Source: an uncultured Acetobacteraceae bacterium (GTDB lineage: Bacteria; Pseudomonadota; Alphaproteobacteria; Acetobacterales; Acetobacteraceae). Taken from it: a DNA stretch of 44,601 bases. The stretch spans positions 1 to 44,601 of the forward strand of contig CALFNB010000365.1 of NCBI GenBank assembly GCA_937902425.1, in the 5' to 3' direction. The notes under the pieces are model-generated. The model made no database searches and was not told the DNA's origin. It worked only from the letters and a program-made list of their open reading frames with translations. Shown here in pieces: positions 4,190-43,980 of the stretch; the stretch's first letter is position 1; each line of letters opens with the position of its first letter. The translations under genes were made by a program, and so were the position numbers.

Positions 4190-5059
4190 CGCCCCAAACG
4201 GGGTCAGAGAGCTCCGGGTATCCGTTAACGGACCCAGAGAAATCAGTAAGTCGCACACCGAACCGGATCCGGCCCAGTGGTCGGCGCACAGGCTGTTGAG
4301 GGCCATGCCACCTCTTTAAGAGCCTGGATGACCCGCGGAAAGCCCGCTCAATGATGAGCCGCCTGGCGATGGCATCTCACCTGACGCACGACGTCCTCAG
4401 TGTTAATCCATCGATGACACGAAGCCAACCGACATGATCCGACATGATCCGAGCACTCTGGCGCACGACTCCGCTCGGTTCTGACGGCTCCACGCATGAA
4501 GACCAAAAGTCGCGATTTAATACCAAAACACCTAATTATTGATTCGTTCAATCCCCGTCATGGCCTGGTCAGACCAGGCCCAACGTGGAGGGCGACAATG
4601 CCGTCCTGGAATTTTAATGAAGATGGCTCATTATCGTCCAATGAGCGTGAGGCATTATCGCCCTGTCTGCCTTTTGATAAGATTGACTCCTAAACGAAAT
4701 GAACTGGCAATGAAAACCGATCGACATCGTGACATGGCCGTGAACCGGTATAACCGTTCGCATCGATCAAGGTCCTACCCATGCCGATGTTCCCGCGAAG
4801 GCCGTATCGGTCGGAAAAAAGACCCGTCCCGGCATCACACAGGCGGGCTTCGTGATGACAAACGAACGCGACCACCCACGCTTCCCGCTGTTGACTGCTA
4901 CGTGAGGTCCGCTGACCCAGTACTGTAACCGCCGCGACCTTTTCCGGTCGTTCCGGGTCATGTTCCATCTGTTCGTTACGGCTTCTTAGGAAAAGATTAA
5001 GAATTCGCCGGTATTTTGGGCCTCCGTCCACCAAAAAAGTCGAACGGAAAAGGCACAGC
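4190..5059 (+). other. 870-bp gene-free interval with palindromes
   Basis: No convincing gene was found here on either strand; the short open frames lack recognisable motifs. Three items of structure are visible. There is a 12-bp perfect palindrome at 4221-4232, soon after the methyltransferase stop. A 10-bp unit (gacatgatcc) occurs twice in tandem at 4431-4450. A 9-1-9 perfect palindrome lies at 4562-4580. The second half is somewhat richer in A+T than the flanking genes. The region should hold the promoter of the repeat-Hint gene, but I cannot place -35/-10 boxes reliably. Confidence 0.5.
4562..4580. promoter_or_regulatory. Perfect 9-1-9 palindrome, GntR-like operator or REP-type repeat
   Basis: GGCCTGGTC-A-GACCAGGCC is a perfect inverted repeat with a one-base centre. 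Its core, TGGTCAGACCA, fits the TNGTNNNACNA pattern known for FadR-subfamily GntR regulators. It could equally be one copy of a dispersed palindromic repeat, because gtcatggcc followed by a self-complementary GC core is a common form of such elements in alphaproteobacteria. It lies about 480 bp upstream of the repeat-Hint gene, which is far for a simple operator. No GntR gene is present in the window. Confidence 0.35.
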
Positions 5060-7927
5060 ATGACCATTTACACCGTGACGTCGGGCGCCGTCAGCAGCGG
5101 CATCGTACTGAGTGGCGGCGATGAACTGAATGTGTTGTCCGGTGGCCTGGCCAGCTTCACCGTGGTGAGCAATGGCGGCGTCGCGAATATGTCCGCTGGC
5201 GGCGTGGCGAACGGAACTGTGGTCAGCAGCGGCGGTGCCGCGAACGTCTTCAATGGTGGGATCGCCAACTCCACGATCGTCAGCGGTGGCGGTGTCGCAG
5301 TCGTTTTCCGCGGCGGTGTGGCGAGCCTGACCCTCGTGAGCAGCGGTGGCATCGCGAACGTTTCCTCTGGCGGCGTGGCGCATGGCACGGTGCTCAGCAG
5401 CGGCGGTGCCGAATACGTCTACAGCCGCGGGCTCGCCAACTCCACCGTCATCAGCGACGGCGGCGCCGCGTTCGTCTACAATGGAGGTGTAGCCAGCGCG
5501 ACCGCGGTTCGCGGCGGCGGCGTGGAGTACGTCTACACCGGTGGCCTGGCCAGCGCCTCCGTGGTCGACAGCGGTGGCGCCGAGTTTGTTTACACTGGCG
5601 GCGCGGCGCGTGGCGCCATGCTGCTCGGTGGCGGATCGGGCTCCGTGTTCAACGGCGGCCTTGCCAGCCTGACCGTGGTGAGCAGCGGTGGCGTTGAAAC
5701 CGTGTTCTCGGGCGGCATGGCCAACGCCACCATGGTCACCACCGGCGGCACGCAGGCGGTGGTCGGCGGCGTGGCCACGGCCACGGTGCTGAATGGCGGC
5801 CTTCAGGTCGTGACCTCCGGGGGCGCGGCCAATGGCACAATGGTGAACCACGGCACTGAGGTGGTTGCGTTCGGTGGCCTGGTCAGCGGCACGGTCCTCA
5901 ACAGCGGTGGCACGGAGGTCGTGTCCTCCGGGGGGACCGCCAACAACACCGTGGTGAACAGTGGTGGTTTCGAAACCGTGTCGGCTGGCGGTGCGGTGAG
6001 TGGCACAACCGTGAGTGGCGGCGGCACCCAAAGCGCGGCAGGCGGTGTGGCCAGCGCTACAATCCTGATCGGGGGCACTCAGATCGTGGCCGCCGGTGGT
6101 ATGGCCAACGCCACCGTGGTGAACAGCGGTGGCAACGAAATCGTGTTGTCCGGCGGTGTCGCCGGCGCCACGATCGTCACCAGCGGCGGATCTCTGGACG
6201 TATCGGGTGGCTTCGGCAGCGGCACCATACTGAATCGCGGCGTCGAGTTCGTGGTCTCTGGCGGTTCTGTTGGTGGGACGGTGGTTAACAGCGGCGCTAC
6301 CGAGACCGTCTCGTCCGGCGGCATGGCGAGTTTCAGCACCGTCAGCGCCGGCGGGATCCAGATCGTGTCCGGTGGCATGGCCAGTGCCACCATCCTGAAC
6401 GGCGGCGTACAGACCGTGGCCGCGGGCGGCGTGGTGAACGGCACCGTGGTCAGCAACGGCGGTACCGCGACGGTTTCCTCGGGCGGAATGGCGAGCTCCA
6501 CGGTGGTCAGCGCCGGCGGTACCGAGGTCGTGGCGTTCGGTGGAGTGGCCACCGGAGCGGCATTAACGGGTGGCCAGCAGATCGTCGCCTCCGGCGGAAC
6601 CGATGCATTCGTCGTGGTGAGCAACGGCGGCACCGAGACAGTGTCCTCCGGCGGAGTGGCCAGGTTCACAACGGTAAGCAATGGTGGCAATCAGATCCTG
6701 ACGGGCGGCGTGGCCAGTGCGGCCATCCTGCGCGGCGGTGTTCAGACGTTGGCATCCGGCGGATTCGCCAGCGGTACCGTGGCGAGCAGCGGTGGTGTCG
6801 CGAATGTCGACGCCGGCGGATCGGCCGCCTTCGCCGTGATCAGCTATGGCGGCGCCGAGTTCATCTTCAGCGGTGGCGTGGCGAGCGGCACCACCGTGAG
6901 CAGTGGCGGGTCAGAGACGGTTGAGATCTTTGGCGTGGTCAGCGCGACGATCGTTGGCAGCGGCGGGGCGGAGTCAGTGCACTACGGCGGAACGGCGGGC
7001 GCTACCATTGTTCAGAGCGGCGCGAACCAATTTGTCTACTCGGGAGGCGCGGTCACCGGCAGCGTGATAGACAGCGGCGGTACTCAGGTTTTGATTTCTG
7101 GCGCCACGGCTGATGGCACGGTGATCGATGTCGGCGGTGCGATTGATGTACTCGGCCTTACTCTTAGCGGCGGCGGGTCGGCGACCCTGGACATCGGGAC
7201 GGACATCCTGACGGTCACCGAAGGTGCCAACCAATATCAGCAGACCTTGGCGGGAACATACGCGAATGTTTCGTTCCGTGTCGGTCCTGACACCGGCAGC
7301 GGCACTCTGGTCACGATGGACAGCACATTGCCCTGCTTCGTCACGGGCACGCGGATCGCGACCGATCGTGGCGAGATCGCGGTCGAAGCCCTGACGGTTG
7401 GCGATTCCATACGGCTGGTTGACGGACGGCCCGCTCCGATCAAGTGGATTGGCCATCGGCGGGTAGACTGCTTCCGCCACCCCAACCCGGAACTGGTCTG
7501 GCCGGTGCGGGTGGTGGCCGGCGCATTCGGGCCGGGAGCACCGCATCGCGATTTATTCCTCTCGCCTGACCATGCGGTGTTCGTCGAGGATGTGCTGATC
7601 CCGGTGAAATATTTGATTAACACAACGAGTATAGCCCAGATGAAGGTGCCGGAGGTAATGTACTATCACGTGGAACTGGCAGTGCATGACATTTTGATAT
7701 CGGAAGGACTACCAACGGAATCTTACCTCGATACCGGTGACCGTTCGAACTTCAGCAACGGTGGTGGCACAGTGATGCTGCATCCGAATTTCTCAACCCA
7801 TGTTTGGGAGGGGATGGGTCGCGCGAAGCTGGTCGTGGTTGGTCCAGAAATAGAAATTGTAAGGCATCGACTAAAGGAACGTGCGCGGCTTGTTTGTCGG
7901 AATACCCGGAGAAGTGATGCGGCCTGA
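5060..7927 (+). CDS. Strand-loop-strand (AIDA-type) repeat protein with C-terminal Hint domain
   Basis: A 955-residue, Gly/Ser/Thr/Val-rich protein. Residues about 7-695 consist of some 36 units of 19 residues, typified by VVSSGGAANVFNGGIANST. This is the autotransporter passenger strand-loop-strand repeat also seen in AIDA-I. Residues about 757-905 form a Hint_2 (hedgehog/intein-like) domain. It begins at Pro758-Cys759 with CFVTGTRIATDRGEIAVEAL and continues with LSPDHAVFVEDVLIPVKYLIN. Cys759 would be the self-processing nucleophile. There is no signal peptide and no C-terminal beta-barrel, so secretion is not by a classical type V route; type I or another route is inferred. A purine-rich stretch (ggaaaagg) precedes ATG 5060. 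Such repeat-Hint proteins are, to my knowledge, common in Acetobacteraceae. A cell-surface or extracellular structural role is likely but unproven. Confidence 0.85.
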   Translation: MTIYTVTSGAVSSGIVLSGGDELNVLSGGLASFTVVSNGGVANMSAGGVANGTVVSSGGAANVFNGGIANSTIVSGGGVAVVFRGGVASLTLVSSGGIANVSSGGVAHGTVLSSGGAEYVYSRGLANSTVISDGGAAFVYNGGVASATAVRGGGVEYVYTGGLASASVVDSGGAEFVYTGGAARGAMLLGGGSGSVFNGGLASLTVVSSGGVETVFSGGMANATMVTTGGTQAVVGGVATATVLNGGLQVVTSGGAANGTMVNHGTEVVAFGGLVSGTVLNSGGTEVVSSGGTANNTVVNSGGFETVSAGGAVSGTTVSGGGTQSAAGGVASATILIGGTQIVAAGGMANATVVNSGGNEIVLSGGVAGATIVTSGGSLDVSGGFGSGTILNRGVEFVVSGGSVGGTVVNSGATETVSSGGMASFSTVSAGGIQIVSGGMASATILNGGVQTVAAGGVVNGTVVSNGGTATVSSGGMASSTVVSAGGTEVVAFGGVATGAALTGGQQIVASGGTDAFVVVSNGGTETVSSGGVARFTTVSNGGNQILTGGVASAAILRGGVQTLASGGFASGTVASSGGVANVDAGGSAAFAVISYGGAEFIFSGGVASGTTVSSGGSETVEIFGVVSATIVGSGGAESVHYGGTAGATIVQSGANQFVYSGGAVTGSVIDSGGTQVLISGATADGTVIDVGGAIDVLGLTLSGGGSATLDIGTDILTVTEGANQYQQTLAGTYANVSFRVGPDTGSGTLVTMDSTLPCFVTGTRIATDRGEIAVEALTVGDSIRLVDGRPAPIKWIGHRRVDCFRHPNPELVWPVRVVAGAFGPGAPHRDLFLSPDHAVFVEDVLIPVKYLINTTSIAQMKVPEVMYYHVELAVHDILISEGLPTESYLDTGDRSNFSNGGGTVMLHPNFSTHVWEGMGRAKLVVVGPEIEIVRHRLKERARLVCRNTRRSDAA

Positions 7928-33030: not shown

Positions 33031-33441
33031 TCAGTTCTCCAATCGTGTCAAGGTGAAGTGTAACCCGCACTGGCCATCCGTGACATCGCCCTGGATGATC
33101 GTGGTGTCATGGGTTCCCGTCAGTTGCACGCCGGGAAGCGAACCCGACACCGTGCCGTTATTCAGAATCGATACCTGGATGAACTGGCCTGCCCAGGGAT
33201 AGAACAAGGTGGCGTTGCGAACGCTGAGGCGTAGCAGGCCGGGCCGCGGGCAGGTCCGGCGCAGCACCTGAAATCGCGTGGTGCTGCCTCGATAATCGCC
33301 ATCCGCTGAAATGGTCGGGGCAACCGGCGTTACGCAGGCTCCCAGGGAAAGCAATGATGCCAGGACGATGGCGCGCACGGATGACTGGCGTTTCCGAAAC
33401 GGCCGCTCACGAGCCGGCATGATTGGCTTCGCGATCATCAA
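33031..33441 (-). CDS. Small predicted lipoprotein of unknown function
   Basis: A 136-residue protein with a lipoprotein signal: basic N-terminus, hydrophobic VRAIVLASLLSLGAC and lipobox Cys36. The mature part (GDYRGSTTRFQ, RRTCPRPGLLRLSVRN, GQFIQVSILNNGTVSGSLPG) looks like a small beta-rich periplasmic domain with Cys residues that could form a disulfide. I do not recognise the family. It converges with the P450 gene (5-bp gap) and its start overlaps the end of the molybdopterin oxidoreductase pseudogene. Translation could begin at 33441 or at the Met codon at 33420. Confidence 0.6.
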   Translation of the reverse strand: MMIAKPIMPARERPFRKRQSSVRAIVLASLLSLGACVTPVAPTISADGDYRGSTTRFQVLRRTCPRPGLLRLSVRNATLFYPWAGQFIQVSILNNGTVSGSLPGVQLTGTHDTTIIQGDVTDGQCGLHFTLTRLEN

Positions 33442-34516
33442 GACTCACCTGCACATAATTCGTGTTGTATGTTGTCGCCCCGCACGGCGCGGAGCGATCC
33501 ATGGCCAGCGCGTTCGCACACCCATTGGTATCGGTGCCCGTTTCGTCCGGCGCGAACCATGCGCCTTCCTTGATCGAGACGACGCCGGGTGCGATCCGGT
33601 CCGTCACGACGGCCGGCAGAACGGTGGCGCCCTGATTATTAAAGATGCGAACCAGTTGGCCGTTGGCGATGCCGCGCGCCGCGGCATCGCCGATGTTCAA
33701 CCAGACATCGTCGGGATCAACCCGCGCGAGGCCCGGCTGATTGCCGTGCGTCGAATGGGTTCGTGCCCGTGATTTCGGCGAGCAAAGCATCAGCGGGAAT
33801 GCCACGTTCGGCCCAGGAGGTGCGATCCAGGTGGGAATTGGCGGCATGGCGCCGAGGCCATACAAATCCGGTTTGGCGGCGAGAGTTGTTGAATAAACCT
33901 CGATTTTTCCGGATCGCGTGTTGAACCGATGATGTTCCGGATCGCGGATTTGCGCCGCGAAGGCGACTGCGCCCGACCACGGCACATGCACGTCGTTGCG
34001 TTCCCAGAAGGTGGTCGCGGGTAGCACGATATCGGCCATACGCACTGTCGGCGTCAGAAAGTGATCTTGCCCAACGATGAACTCGACCCCTTCGAGCGAT
34101 GCCGCGATCTTCCCCGCGTTCGGTGCCTGATTGAACAATCCGCCACCCGCCGAGTAAATCAGTTTGAGGTCGGCCGGGTAACCGCCCGCCTTGCCGCGCG
34201 CCAACGGATCCGCATCCAGTGCTTCGTCCCAGGTAATGCGTTCGAATTGTCCCGATCCGCGAGGGCCGGTTCGCCGCATCGGGCATCGCAGCCGGTCCGG
34301 GTGATACGTCCGCTCCATCTGCCCGACGCCGTGGGCGCAGGCGGGCAACGGAGGATGTTCCGGGTTCCAGCGTCGCATGTCGGTGCTGATACGGGTGATG
34401 CGCCCGTCGGTCACGTGCGCGTTGACCATGCAACGGCCACCGCGATTATGGCCGCAGGTGCTGGTGATCACCGTGTCACCAACTTTTGGGTCGATACGCG
34501 GGGCTTCGTAAACCAT
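33407..34516 (-). pseudogene. Molybdopterin oxidoreductase, internally deleted
   Basis: Three blocks of a DMSO-reductase-family enzyme survive in one open frame. First is the N-terminal Fe-S segment and LPACAHGVGQMERTYHPDRL up to RITWDEALD. Next is ADPLARGKAGGYPADLKLIYSAGG to FWERNDVHVPW. Last is FAAQIRDPEHHRFNTRSGKIEVYS to the molydopterin-binding C-terminus (LLCSPKSRARTHSTHGNQ-like, IKEGAWFAPDETGTD). Family members are about 750 residues; about 370 remain. The junctions after EALD and after VPWSGAV lack roughly 280 and 75 residues, including most of the cofactor core. One Fe-S Cys is Arg (TCGHNRGGRC). The frame extends to 34654 with non-family residues over a long inverted repeat. Almost certainly non-functional. 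Confidence 0.8.
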
Positions 34517-34568
34517 GGTCACCCGGAGATCGGGTATGAAATCTGGCACTGTCCGTTCTCCAGGTACA

Positions 34569-34641
34569 TCGTCTTCGCCCGGCTCGACCGGGTCGTCACT
34601 ACTCTCAAGGTCGATGGCCCAGTCGAGCCGGGCGAAGACGA
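34569..34641. repeat. 20-bp perfect inverted repeat with 33-base loop
   Basis: Bases 34569-34588 (starting TCGTCTTCGCCC) are exactly complementary to 34622-34641 (ending GGGCGAAGACGA). The structure sits 28 bp past the stop of the luciferase-like monooxygenase gene and just before the pseudogene. It may be a strong factor-dependent terminator or one copy of a dispersed palindromic element. No T-run follows on the minus strand. Confidence 0.6.
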
Positions 34642-34668
34642 GGTTGGTATGCAAGCATCAAGCGGCGA

Positions 34669-39707: not shown

Positions 39708-39860
39708 GCGTCGCGTGCGGCGACCGATACGCAGCTCACCGTCGCACATGATGATTTGGGTGATCGCGCGCGGACCTGAAACGGAAATCCTCTTGTTGGC
39801 GATGAGCCGGTCCGGCCGTGAAGTTCCCCGCTGAGGGCCAGCCTGATCCGGAACCCCTAG

Positions 39861-40925
39861 CCCGCATTTCTCACCGGACTTCACCCGACCGTCCGCGCGG
39901 TTCCTTTTGAGAAGGTTGGATGGTGCGCGGGTGAGCTGATCCATTGGGAATGGCGGTTCTGACGGTTTCCGCGCGAGCGCTGTGGCCCGCGGCTATGTCG
40001 GCGGGAGCGGCGCGGTGATGTGGCGGCTCGCGGTGTCTGGTTCGCGCGGGCTCAGACCGACGCCTCTCGTAGTCGAAGATGCGCGGTGGCGAACGCCGCG
40101 CGCCATGGAAAGGCGGAAGCCATCGCCACACGCACGCGCCGGACGCTGACGGTGACCAGGGCGCCGATTTTCAGAAGCGCGGTGCGGATCGTGCCACATG
40201 TCGCCCTGGCGAACCGCGTGTCATCGAGCCCGATCCGGCGCAGCCCGTGCATCAGCACGTAGGCGAAGGACGTCAACCAAAGACGGAGCTGATTGGCCCG
40301 CATCGTCGTGGCCGAGGTGCGATCGGCGAACAGATCGAGCTGGCATTCCTTGATGCGGTTCTCCATATCACCCCGGGCACAGTAAACCCGCTCATACGGC
40401 CAGCGTGCCTTCACCTCGGACTTTTTCAGCGAGGTGACGATGAAGCGAGGATTGGCCTCGCCTCTCGTCCATTCCGCCTTGGCGATGACCCGGCGTTCGC
40501 GGCTCCAGCTTTCACGCGTCGACCAGCGGAAGTCACGGAAGCGGCGGGCGGGGTCGTGGCGCAATGTGTCGTGGTCGCACAGGTCTTCGTAGCCCAGCGC
40601 GATGCCGGTGATGCGTTGCATCAACAGGGTTTCCACCGGGTGCGCGATCAGAGCCTCGTTCCTCGCGTCGGTGAAGCAGGCCGCCAGTCGGCGGGTCAGA
40701 TTGAGCGCCCGATCCGTCTGGCCCAACAACAAGGCTCCGGGATCGCTGGTGATCCGACCGCCACCGAAGTCGGCGACCACGGCACGGGTCTCCACGCGTG
40801 GAAATTCAAACAGGTCCGGGATACACTCCGTGGGCATCGGGCATTCCCCCGCGTGACTGATATGTCGCAGAAGAACTTTCGCTCATTCGGAGGCCCGATG
40901 CACCTGATTCGGTGAGAAATGCGGG
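39861..40925 (-). mobile_element. IS1380-family element, internally deleted, with matching terminal repeats
   Basis: CCCGCATTTCTCACCG at 39861-39876 is the exact reverse complement of CGGTGAGAAATGCGGG at 40910-40925, and the enclosed 1065 bp contains an IS1380-type transposase pseudogene. Complete IS1380 elements are about 1.6-1.7 kb, so roughly 500-600 bp are missing. The four bases outside each end (ctag and ttaa) do not match, so no target duplication is preserved. The right end abuts an IS5-type remnant directly. Confidence 0.82.
40052..40837 (-). pseudogene. IS1380-family transposase with internal deletion
   Basis: 261 residues remain open. The N-terminal part (RAVVADFGGGRITSDPGALLLGQTDRALNLTRRLAACF, then EDLCDHDTLRHDP) and the C-terminal part (FRDFRWSTRESWSRERRVIAKAEW, CARGDMENRIKECQLDLFADRTS, TMRANQLRLWLTSFAYVLMHGL) fit IS1380 transposases. 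These normally run about 440-470 residues. The break falls at RHDPARRFRDF, where the central catalytic region with the first acidic residues is missing. It cannot be active by itself. Confidence 0.85.
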
Positions 40926-41350
40926 TTAAGACCGACCTCGAGTGCAATCCGCTCGATTTCCACCTGACCGGTGGCGAGGTGAGCGACACGACGCAATTCG
41001 AAACCTCCCTTGATCCCGGTCCTGACATCACGCCGCGTGTCGTGATGACCGACAAGGGATACGACAGCCGGCCAAGCGCGCGGCAGCCCGGACGCGAGGA
41101 TCACACCAATCATCCCGAGGAAGGGAAACTCAAAGGAGCGGGGGCGCTTCTTTCCGAAGAAGCTCTACAAGCTCCGGGCACGGATCAAGCAGACGATGGG
41201 CAAACTCAAACGCTTCAAGCGCATCGCCCTTCGATGCGAAAAAACCGCCATCTCCTTCTGCGCTCTCGCCAGCTTCGCCTGCGGCCTGATGCTTATCAAA
41301 TCCGTCCACAGGGCCTACAACGCCGAGTGTTGCCAATTGCGCCCTCCTGA
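40926..41350 (+). pseudogene. IS5-type transposase remnant, frameshifted
   Basis: Two pieces of a transposase of the IS5/IS427 kind are visible in different frames. The first is about 40926-41070 (NPLDFHLTGGEVSDTTQFE and PRVVMTDKGYDS, the latter carrying a catalytic Asp). The second is about 41148-41320 (FFPKKLYKLRARIKQTMGKL, KRFKRIALRCEKTAISF and CALASFACGLMLIKSVH, with the usual C-terminal signature). At least one frameshift and loss of the N-terminal half have occurred. The truncated left side coincides with the IS1380 end, so the IS1380 insertion or later recombination removed it. Confidence 0.78.
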
Positions 41351-41443
41351 ACCAAGATGCGGGGCCAGAGGCGACGTTCATCTGGAAAATGTCAGCCATT
41401 GGAGGAGACAGTCGTCCACATCGCGAAGCCGGGGAAGAAATGC

Positions 41444-42388
41444 ATGACGTTTGTAGCAGTGACCGCCTCTTTGTTGGAATCCGGTGTACTGACGAATCAC
41501 GTGGATTTCGCACTGCCGTTCAGATCGGCGAGAGCGATCAAGGATCCCGAGGTGTTGCACTTCCTCGACGAGGTCGGTCGAGGCAGCAATTTGAGTCTCT
41601 ATGCCGATGGCGACGAGAGTAGAATTAAATTTTTGAGCGATTTTCCAGCCTGGCTCTGTTCTTCATCGGTGAATAAACTGATAAACATTGATATGTTTCG
41701 ATTCTCCTCCTTCACGCATGGTACGATTCAGGCATTCGATGCTTTCTATTCGAGCAATCGGAAGCGCCGTTTCCGTTGCTTCAAGGGCGAATTTATGTAT
41801 CACGTCGCATGCTGGCGCGTCGGCTACGACTTCGCCTTCATCGAAGACGCTCCCGTCCAGCGGGGAGACGCGATAGTAATCTCGCTGCCTTTTTCCGACT
41901 CCGGGGGAAGGCATCCGTTGATGGATGAAGTTATCGCCGTCTGTAACAGGCTAGAGGTTCCCGTTCTGGTCGATTGCGCCTACATGAATATCAGTAAGGG
42001 CGTCGAATTCGACTTCAACCAGCCTTGCATTGATGTCGTCGCTTTCAGCCTCAGCAAGACATTTTACGGGCTGGCCAAGATGCGAATTGGCGTCCGATTG
42101 AGCAAGAATTTTACCGACGACTTTGTCCACGTCTTCAATACCGCTGGGATGGTGAACCAGTTTTCCTGCGCCCTTGGGTCGGCCTTCATCGAAAAGTTCG
42201 ACGTCGATTTCAACGTTACGAAGTATCGCCAACGTCAGATCGATGTGTGCCGCCAGTTGAATGTCGAACCCAGCGACTGCGTCATATTCGGCCTTGGAGG
42301 CGATGATTGGGCCGCTTACAATCGTGGTGGCGCATACAATCGGATTTGCGTGAATAGTATTCTCGAACAGGAGGGAAGCCATGAGTGA
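41444..42388 (+). CDS. PLP-dependent aminotransferase-like protein (fold type I)
   Basis: A 314-residue protein with aminotransferase class I/II features. The PLP lysine is Lys195 in VVAFSLSKTFYGLAKMRIGV; the R-x-G that follows (Arg204) is the usual phosphate ligand. VPVLVDCAYMNIS gives Asp167 and Tyr170, which contact the ring. GDAIVISLPFSDSGGRHPLMDEVIAVC resembles the N-P-x-x-P-x-G region but is altered, and NRICVNS near the end fits the carboxylate-binding Arg. It is shorter than typical members (about 380-400), chiefly at the N-terminus. GGGGAAG precedes ATG 41444. The last 8 bp overlap the oxygenase gene. Base composition is clearly more AT-rich than the chromosome around it, and insertion-sequence remnants lie on both sides, which suggests transfer. 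Substrate unknown. Confidence 0.72.
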   Translation: MTFVAVTASLLESGVLTNHVDFALPFRSARAIKDPEVLHFLDEVGRGSNLSLYADGDESRIKFLSDFPAWLCSSSVNKLINIDMFRFSSFTHGTIQAFDAFYSSNRKRRFRCFKGEFMYHVACWRVGYDFAFIEDAPVQRGDAIVISLPFSDSGGRHPLMDEVIAVCNRLEVPVLVDCAYMNISKGVEFDFNQPCIDVVAFSLSKTFYGLAKMRIGVRLSKNFTDDFVHVFNTAGMVNQFSCALGSAFIEKFDVDFNVTKYRQRQIDVCRQLNVEPSDCVIFGLGGDDWAAYNRGGAYNRICVNSILEQEGSHE

Positions 42389-43052
42389 CGCAGCCTGTGT
42401 CCCGCATTCTCGGGCTTTGGACCGAATTGTCCGAGAAGAAGAGGGATATTGGCATTTCGATCCTGGTAGGACCGGCCAGGACTACATCACGATCGGAAAT
42501 ATCCGGGATCAGGTTGGTACCCATTGGATGGATGTCGTGCGGTTCGCCCGTGAGATGGACCAGACAATAAAAAGCACGTCAGTGTTCGATTTTTCTCCTG
42601 ACAGCGATCACGAAATTATAAGGACCGCTTCACAGATCAGGGAGATGGGATACGATGACATCAGTACATCCCATCACAAGACGTATTCAGATTCTTGTCC
42701 TGATATATTTGATCCGATATTTCGTATTTTCCGAATAAAAAGTCCGATGGGAAGTATAATACATCAGAAGCCCGGGAAGGTTCTACCATGGCACTATGAT
42801 AGTTGCGCTTTTTACGCGAAAAAATTTAATGTGCCGGATCGCTCCAAGATTTCCCGCTTCCTCATTTTCCTGGAGGATTGGAGTTGGGGCCATTACGTCC
42901 TGATCGGGAATTCCGTAGTGCATCAGTGGAAGGCGGCCGACACGGTCACGTGGCCTTACCGTATGCGACATCTCACAGCGAACGCAGGATTGACGCCGAA
43001 ATTGACGATGCAGATCACTGGCCTGGCTCGGCTTCCCGCGAGCATCGGTTGA
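42381..43052 (+). CDS. Fe(II)/2-oxoglutarate-dependent oxygenase-like protein
   Basis: A 223-residue protein. KPGKVLPWHYDSCAFY gives a HxD iron motif (His138, Asp140). SRFLIFLEDWSWGHYVLIGN followed by VVHQWKAADTVTW and RMRHLTANAGLTPKLTMQITG matches the C-terminal half of small oxygenases of the kind seen in phages and marine bacteria (pattern FLxDWxxG, WxxGD, HxxxNxG, LQITG). His197 would be the distal iron ligand. The expected 2-oxoglutarate Arg is Lys207 here. ATG 42381 overlaps the aminotransferase-like gene by 8 bp with GGAGGGA upstream, so translation is coupled. The sequence is AT-rich with rare-looking codons. Activity and substrate are inferred only; hydroxylation of an amino acid or keto acid handled by the partner is a reasonable guess. 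Confidence 0.65.
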   Translation: MSDAACVPHSRALDRIVREEEGYWHFDPGRTGQDYITIGNIRDQVGTHWMDVVRFAREMDQTIKSTSVFDFSPDSDHEIIRTASQIREMGYDDISTSHHKTYSDSCPDIFDPIFRIFRIKSPMGSIIHQKPGKVLPWHYDSCAFYAKKFNVPDRSKISRFLIFLEDWSWGHYVLIGNSVVHQWKAADTVTWPYRMRHLTANAGLTPKLTMQITGLARLPASIG

Positions 43053-43090
43053 CTGAGGTGCCTGTGGTTTGTGACTGAATGGGACTCGCA

Positions 43091-43362
43091 GCGGTGGTCG
43101 CTGAAGCAGGTAGCAAATCGTGCCACCAACCCGATCGCTCGGTCTCTCGCTCCCAGCAGTAACCCGCCGGCATCCGACGTGATCGTGCCGCCATCGAATG
43201 CCGCCACCACCGCGCGGCTCTGTACGGGTGCAAATTCGAACAGCGTCGGGTTACCCTCTTTCGGCATCGGGGAACGCCTCCGCTTCAGCAAAAGTCCTTC
43301 CTGCAGAAGAACTTTCGCCAATTCAGAGCCCCGATGCACCTACCCAGTGTGAGATATACGGG
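43091..43362 (-). mobile_element. Truncated IS1380-family element, N-terminal end only
   Basis: The minus strand from 43267 to about 43091 encodes the first 59 residues of an IS1380 transposase (MPKEGNPTLFEFAPVQSRAV, then FDGGTITSDAGGLLLGARDR and VARFATCFSDHR), after which the frame leaves the family. The outer end, GTGTGAGATATACGGG to 43362, resembles the right end of the copy at 40925 (GTGAGAAATGCGGG) but differs at several bases, so this is a different element. It ends exactly beside the lysE-family stop codon (43363-43365). Confidence 0.75.
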
Positions 43363-43980
43363 CTAGCCGCGGGCTGAGGCGATCGCCTGTAGGCCAAAGC
43401 CCAGAAAGATCACGCCGGACGCGCGCGTGACCCATAACGCATGCCGGCGATACCATCGGCGTACCAGGCCGGCGCCGATGATTGTGACCAGAATGATGTC
43501 GGCAGCGACGAATCCCGCGCAGGCTGCCGCGAGCAGGCGTGGCAACGATGTCCAGTCCAACTCCCTCGCGTGCCCGGCCAGCAGCGCGGTGAACATTGCC
43601 ACCGCGACCGGATACGCCTTCGGGTTCAACATCCCGAAGGCAAGCCCTCGCCGGAACGGATCGCGCGGCGCGAATGTCGTCGATCCGTCGTCGCGCCGCT
43701 TTGTCGTCACCGCGCGATAACCCAACCAGCAAAGATACGCGCCGCACACCAGATCGAGCACACTGAAGATCGTCGTGCCAATCGTTTTGGCCCCGATGAT
43801 CGCGACCAGGGCGAGGGTCGCCCAGCATACGTCACCCGCGAAATGGCCGGCGAGGAACCACGCGCCGGCGCGCCGCCCACTGCCGGCACCAATCCCAAGC
43901 AGCGCGAGGAACGCCGGACCCGGTGCCAACGTGTAGGCACCGCCCGCGACGGCGGACGCGAGCAGCAGGGCCGGCGTCAA
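43363..43980 (-). CDS. LysE/RhtB-family amino-acid exporter
   Basis: A 205-residue inner-membrane protein with about six hydrophobic segments. AGGAYTLAPGPAFLALLGIGAGSGRRAGAWFLAGH at the N-terminus contains the family's xPGP motif. FRRGLAFGMLNPKAYPVAVAMF is the conserved central NPK region. It probably exports amino acids or related metabolites; the substrate is not predictable. Its start overlaps the stop of the upstream metallo-hydrolase gene by 4 bp. The stop lies exactly next to the end of the truncated IS1380 copy, yet the length is normal for the family. Confidence 0.88.
   Translation of the reverse strand: MTPALLLASAVAGGAYTLAPGPAFLALLGIGAGSGRRAGAWFLAGHFAGDVCWATLALVAIIGAKTIGTTIFSVLDLVCGAYLCWLGYRAVTTKRRDDGSTTFAPRDPFRRGLAFGMLNPKAYPVAVAMFTALLAGHARELDWTSLPRLLAAACAGFVAADIILVTIIGAGLVRRWYRRHALWVTRASGVIFLGFGLQAIASARG

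Follow-up and report, generated by a model that had tools for sequence, protein, structure and literature searches.

A short PLP enzyme and a small 2OG-type oxygenase are encoded by two overlapping genes in a stretch of 44,601 nucleotides from an uncultured Acetobacteraceae bacterium (hereafter the window), and the question arises how this pair came to its place, whether the two enzymes form a true partnership and what they may produce. The first-pass annotation had described two genes with an 8-bp overlap, of lower GC than the surroundings and enclosed by insertion-sequence debris, and it proposed hydroxylation coupled to transamination with the LysE-family exporter as a possible outlet. The features of the locus are the following.

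41444..42388, plus strand: PLP enzyme gene, fold-type-I, class I/II aminotransferase-like, 314 aa
42381..43052, plus strand: oxygenase gene, 2OG-Fe(II)-type, 223 aa, with His138-Asp140-His197 and Lys207
42381..42388, plus strand: 8-bp overlap of the PLP and oxygenase ORFs
39712..43369, no strand: inserted stretch between recN and lysE, 3658 bases between blastn ends (blastn and tblastn)
40052..40837, minus strand: IS1380-type transposase remnant (PF13701, E 6.3e-80 in two stretches; shortened to 261 aa, model length 435)
40919..41350, plus strand: frameshifted DDE transposase remnant (PF01609, E 2.6e-5)
about 43073..43341, minus strand: second IS1380-type fragment (PF13701, E 6.5e-10; profile positions 2-54, N-terminal part only)

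The pair is located in an inserted stretch between recN and lysE. At the locus of a sister species (L105) the recN-side and lysE-side blastn matches end 54 bases apart, while the corresponding ends in the window, 39711 and 43370, leave 3658 bases (3.66 kb) between them; the length of this spacer varies, since in another relative (L110) recN and lysE are separated by about 870 bases, and recN was absent from the fetched 3.6 kb of the 9 other sister loci compared. When the relatives set was searched, its 97 further genomes yielded neither gene of the pair, apart from a single weak oxygenase match in G045 (28% over 91 residues, E 0.009). The overlap and the low GC stand as first described: GC is 0.514 in the PLP gene and 0.499 in the oxygenase gene against 0.60–0.67 in recN, bamD, lysE and the MBL gene, and GC3 is 0.64 and 0.55, respectively, against 0.74–0.80 in these four neighbours. 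Transposase debris was likewise found on both sides, but the insertion reaches beyond the span first given for the pair, to about 39712–43369. The DDE remnant is taken by us to be IS5-like; the two IS1380-type fragments differ from each other (over about 160 bases their DNA is 72% identical), and the longer of the two has IS1380-annotated plasmid matches, for the most part from Acetobacter (47 of 117 records), a hint at Acetobacteraceae. Horizontal acquisition of the pair, with its foreign composition and transposase debris on either side, is the best reading of these data.

The exporter gene belongs to a native flank of the insertion. The lysE gene is present in 25 of 31 genus-set genomes, the own genome included, the pair was not found in the others, and of the 11 sister loci that were compared 9 have the MBL gene next to lysE, in genomes where the pair was likewise not found; LysE was therefore rejected as the partner of the pair. 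Elsewhere in the window two further features were seen by eye: a molybdopterin-oxidoreductase-like ORF that lacks its central part and may be a pseudogene formed by deletion (33407–34654, minus strand), and a 955-aa protein with many glycine-rich repeats of about 20 residues and a Hint-like C-terminal part (5060–7927, plus strand).

Both enzymes are intact, and the assignment to a fold-type-I PLP enzyme and an HxD...H oxygenase is borne out by Pfam for the former and by AlphaFold models and fold searches for both, with no decay of the active site in either gene and the family-invariant residues in place. The PLP protein matches Aminotran_1_2 (PF00155) just above the threshold (E 3.5e-5, 23.6 bits against a cut-off of 19.7) and did not match DegT/DnrJ/EryC1 (PF01041) in the Pfam search. 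Its AlphaFold model (mean pLDDT 90.7) is a fold-type-I aminotransferase, and its nearest folds by Foldseek belong to HisC, CobD, MppP and further enzymes of fold-type-I; the TMq values to solved structures are modest, 0.52–0.66 among the matches listed (50 of 1331), where MppP and Pad-1 reach 0.65–0.66, the next value is 0.63 and GntC (8fft) is also present. The protein shares the fold and the catalytic Lys, Asp and Arg with class I/II aminotransferases such as HisC, CobD and MppP, and differs from them by its bare passage of the family cut-off, by a conserved RCFKGE-type block in the family alignment and by the short length of family members, about 283–314 aa. Of the two in-frame ATGs of the ORF, at 41357 and at 41444, the N-termini of relatives favour the latter; counted from it the catalytic residues are Asp177, Lys205 and Arg214, so that the PLP numbers given at first (167/195/204) are 10 too low, as would be expected for a TTG start at 41474, while those of the oxygenase (His138, Asp140, His197, Lys207) were correct. 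Among 39 aligned PLP sequences 21 positions are invariant, including these three, Arg294 and Arg300. The roles of Lys205, Asp177 and Arg214 are assumed by analogy with fold-type-I enzymes, and Arg300, in an NR-I/L motif, is presumed from other aminotransferases to bind the alpha-carboxylate, by which its invariance points to an amino- or keto-acid substrate.

The oxygenase, whose ATG is closely preceded by AGGAGG, matched no Pfam family at E up to 10. Its model (mean pLDDT 81, residues 1–33 below 50) has the 2OG-type double-stranded beta-helix, with 2OG oxygenases as fold neighbours (TMq 0.34–0.53 among the matches listed). His138, Asp140 and His197 are invariant across 26 aligned rows and Lys207 in all 8 aligned members of the nearest oxygenase group; the lysine in place of arginine is, by this alignment, a feature of the lineage, and from its position it may serve as the basic residue for the 2OG carboxylate. 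The HxD...H residues are shared with Asp_Arg_Hydrox (PF05118), annotated in phages such as Mosig and matched by 4 of 25 aligned oxygenase members at E up to 0.01; however, the window protein has Lys207 where Arg is usual and no match to the profile, and its membership in PF05118 was rejected. Single-protein PDB sequence searches with the PLP protein and the oxygenase gave no credible match to any enzyme whose substrate is known, profile searches of the PDB returned weak partial matches only, and in PHROGs nothing was significant for the PLP and oxygenase proteins of the window or the relatives tested (best E 0.15).

The partnership recurs outside this genome and is real; with the intact active sites, both outcomes that the first-pass annotation had named as refuting it are contradicted. 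A profile of the PLP proteins from the window and the viral locus L006 matched viral contigs in 98 stretches, of which 80 were kept, and genome contigs in 2; 85 PLP ORFs outside the window (4 from two contigs fetched twice) were reduced at 85% identity to 40 loci; IMG/VR supplied 37 of these, one is from a phage isolate (L008) and two are cellular (L090, L091). A broad-profile oxygenase is immediately adjacent in 29 of the 40 loci (25 with the tighter A6 profile) and within 8 genes in 37 (36 with A6). The broad profile matched 30 of 78 genes at ±1 against 38 of 474 at ±2 to 8 (binomial p 9.5e-14, a value to be taken only as a guide since the loci share ancestry). Where it matched nothing, L013 has a PF13640 oxygenase immediately downstream, L030 has a member of the same cluster as this oxygenase two genes upstream, and L022 has a protein weakly resembling 2OG-FeII_Oxy, below cut-off. 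Gene order and orientation differ (oxygenase first, PLP first, divergent, convergent), and the pair stays together; in L006 the PLP gene precedes the oxygenase gene with the same 8-bp overlap as in the window (5752–5759) and a second oxygenase upstream, and L007 carries the same genes.

In the reverse direction a profile of 8 oxygenases gave 216 relatives, of which 80 were kept and 79 analysed (L052 was left out), resulting in 48 distinct oxygenases. Thirty of the 32 close ones (E below 1e-60) lie within 150 bp of a complete PLP ORF, and for the other two the fetched DNA ends 169 and 231 bases away, with the start of a PLP-family protein readable by eye after both. Among the 16 weaker relatives 7 have a PLP gene and 9 have none within 150 bp, which indicates that the partnership is specific to one oxygenase group, related oxygenases occurring also without a PLP gene. 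This search is partly circular and not independent, because its profile was made from PLP-adjacent oxygenases and the PLP set already contained the contigs of 22 of the 80 loci. A viral scan with the single oxygenase protein led to L004/L005, where the matched ORF looks terminase-like by eye, and these were dropped. In plasmids tblastn found no match to either protein, and in phage records a single weak match to each. No description of an oxygenase and PLP enzyme pair of this kind was met in the searched portion of the open-licence literature. The recurrence of the pair in many viral contigs and a few microbes argues that it is a real metabolic module.

Three further cellular genomes contain the pair or a pair-like locus. 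In an uncultured alphaproteobacterium (AG-414-E06, L090) the genes are divergent and their stretch has 23–28% GC, the rest of the locus having 31–37%. The second of 2 matches in 162 genomes of the same order (L195/L196) has a convergent pair, within a run of consecutive genes for DegT aminotransferase, GT2, the PLP enzyme, the oxygenase, an epimerase and GDP-mannose dehydratase. In a Nitrosopelagicus MAG (L091:6855–8696) an amino-acid-kinase domain (PF00696) is fused to the PLP domain, and an oxygenase-like ORF adjoins; as a single case this fusion was set aside as evidence on the substrate. Among 398 genomes of the phylum there was no match at E 1e-15 except in the own genome, and among 31 genomes of the archaeal genus the L091 genome alone matched. 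In the tree of 47 PLP proteins the cellular rows are ungrouped and at least two changes of label are forced, L090 and the viral L006 are a sister pair (100/99), and the window stands on a lone branch without resolved placement. The scattered cellular rows, the label changes and the grouping of L090 with L006 suggest that genes passed between viruses and cells more than once, and spread of the module by phages is strongly suggested.

The counts for the neighbourhood are approximate, as clusters were formed by single linkage and one member of each was tested. Within 8 genes of the PLP gene radical SAM proteins occur in 31 of the 40 loci, an unassigned family (c2) in 26, a cluster with an epimerase as tested member in 19 and a cluster with an Mtd_N tail-protein domain (tested member) in 8. 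An amidinotransferase cluster is present in 24 loci, all from IMG/VR and always downstream at +1 to +5, and is a third gene of phage loci; the one member tested is StrB1-type (best PDB match 1bwd, E 5.2e-88). It had no match in the window's own genome (G000, 89% complete), while the query matched 5 of 6 records elsewhere; the genomes of L090 and L196 encode an amidinotransferase away from the pair, and the L091 genome gave no match. FolE, QueE-like or DpdA-like clusters lie within 8 genes in 6 loci, FolE being assigned by PF01227, while the names DpdA and QueE, for which Pfam gave no match, are our own presumption. Such genes surround the pair in L006 (103–8762), possibly a setting of 7-deazaguanine DNA modification. 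In the viral L197 a C-methyltransferase and epimerases precede the PLP gene, and the same 352-kb contig has a second, diverged pair (4251–5676) between a gene that looks DNA-polymerase-like by eye and one that we take to be DpdA-like. A protein of L054 (5744–7189, minus strand) is AMP-binding-like below cut-off (E 3e-4); its cluster occurs at 5 of the 40 loci and could serve to activate an acid that the module produces.

According to these data a horizontally acquired, mainly phage-circulating module of a hydroxylase and a PLP enzyme, which tailors an amino-acid-type substrate, its product most probably becoming a surface-glycan decoration, is preferred as a serious but tentative reading. The oxygenase would hydroxylate a small substrate of amino-acid type and the PLP enzyme would transaminate or rearrange it, the reverse order of steps being also allowed for, and the product would end on a surface glycan; in many phages the amidinotransferase, a gene not found in this genome, probably adds an arginine-dependent step. 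Transamination coupled to hydroxylation, as proposed at first, remains a plausible proposal. The glycan destination is favoured by the L196 cluster, the sugar genes of L197 and the epimerase-type cluster in 19 of 40 loci; against it, no glycan gene was recognised, partly by eye, beside the pairs of the window and L090, and 6 of 40 loci lie near FolE, QueE-like or DpdA-like genes. The preferred reading as a whole is also weakened because no enzyme with a known substrate was matched by sequence and because the TM-scores are modest. In related background, the host-recognition region of pelagimyophages was described to hold many genes related to LPS (PMC7029224).

The same glycan-type neighbours would fit a sugar-modifying pair, in which the PLP enzyme would add an amino group to a nucleotide-keto-sugar and the oxygenase would act on the sugar by oxidation. 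This is considered unlikely, as Pfam places the PLP protein in Aminotran_1_2 with no match to DegT/DnrJ/EryC1, the presumed role of the invariant Arg300 suggests a carboxylate substrate, and L196 has a separate DegT enzyme.

A more doubtful alternative is a maker of a guanidino amino acid resembling capreomycidine or enduracididine, where the oxygenase hydroxylates arginine and the PLP enzyme cyclises or deaminates it. Pairs of 2OG and PLP enzymes for such chemistry exist, and the 2OG-dependent arginine hydroxylase VioC with its PLP partner VioD is one of them (PMC10367076, PMC8399532), so that the initial remark, in which no described pathway of just these two enzymes was known, needs qualification, while kinship of the present pair to that one was not found. 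VioC/VioD for capreomycidine and GntC for enduracididine resemble the proposed scheme in hydroxylation followed by a fold-type-I PLP enzyme, theirs acting on arginine, and differ in that PDB sequence searches showed no kinship to them and no peptide-antibiotic cluster was seen. The leading fold matches among those listed, MppP and Pad-1, with GntC present, and the downstream amidinotransferase in the phage loci are consistent with this route; however, the TM gap to other aminotransferases is small, PDB sequence searches gave no match to such enzymes, and the amidinotransferase is unmatched in the own genome with a query effective elsewhere. VioD itself may not be among the solved structures, since in the GntC paper it is modelled with AlphaFold.

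Improbable, in turn, is hypermodification of phage DNA together with 7-deazaguanine genes, with the pair stranded in this bacterium as a relic. The FolE, QueE-like or DpdA-like clusters of 6 loci and the position of the second L197 pair agree with it, but 34 of 40 loci are without these clusters within 8 genes (some loci being short), no gene of these kinds was recognised beside the pair in the cellular L090 and L196, and two of the three names lack Pfam matches. A passenger role of the DNA, functionless in this bacterium, or an error of assembly, to which the transposase debris, the absence of the pair from other genus-set genomes and the draft state of the assembly (667 contigs) might point, is very improbable, as both frames are intact with family-invariant residues and a single contig holds the pair with both native flanks.

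Beyond the preferred reading, it is an unlikely but consequential idea that a hitherto undescribed, phage-spread module, with the hydroxylase and the PLP enzyme as its core and often an amidinotransferase in addition, makes a hydroxylated or guanidino amino acid and attaches it to host surface glycans or phage DNA, by which rival phages or restriction would be blocked, and that bacteria have captured it; if so, they would gain a ready-made surface-variation or anti-phage trait. In summary, an odd pair of genes becomes a recurrent enzyme partnership, found in many viral contigs and a few microbes, among which no characterised member was found, and the window clearly exemplifies the insertion of such a module into a bacterial chromosome. 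In cyanophage genomes 2OG-Fe(II) proteins whose role is unsettled are numerous (PMC3037559), and the pair offers a testable unit for the chemistry of some of the many phage 2OG oxygenases of unknown role.
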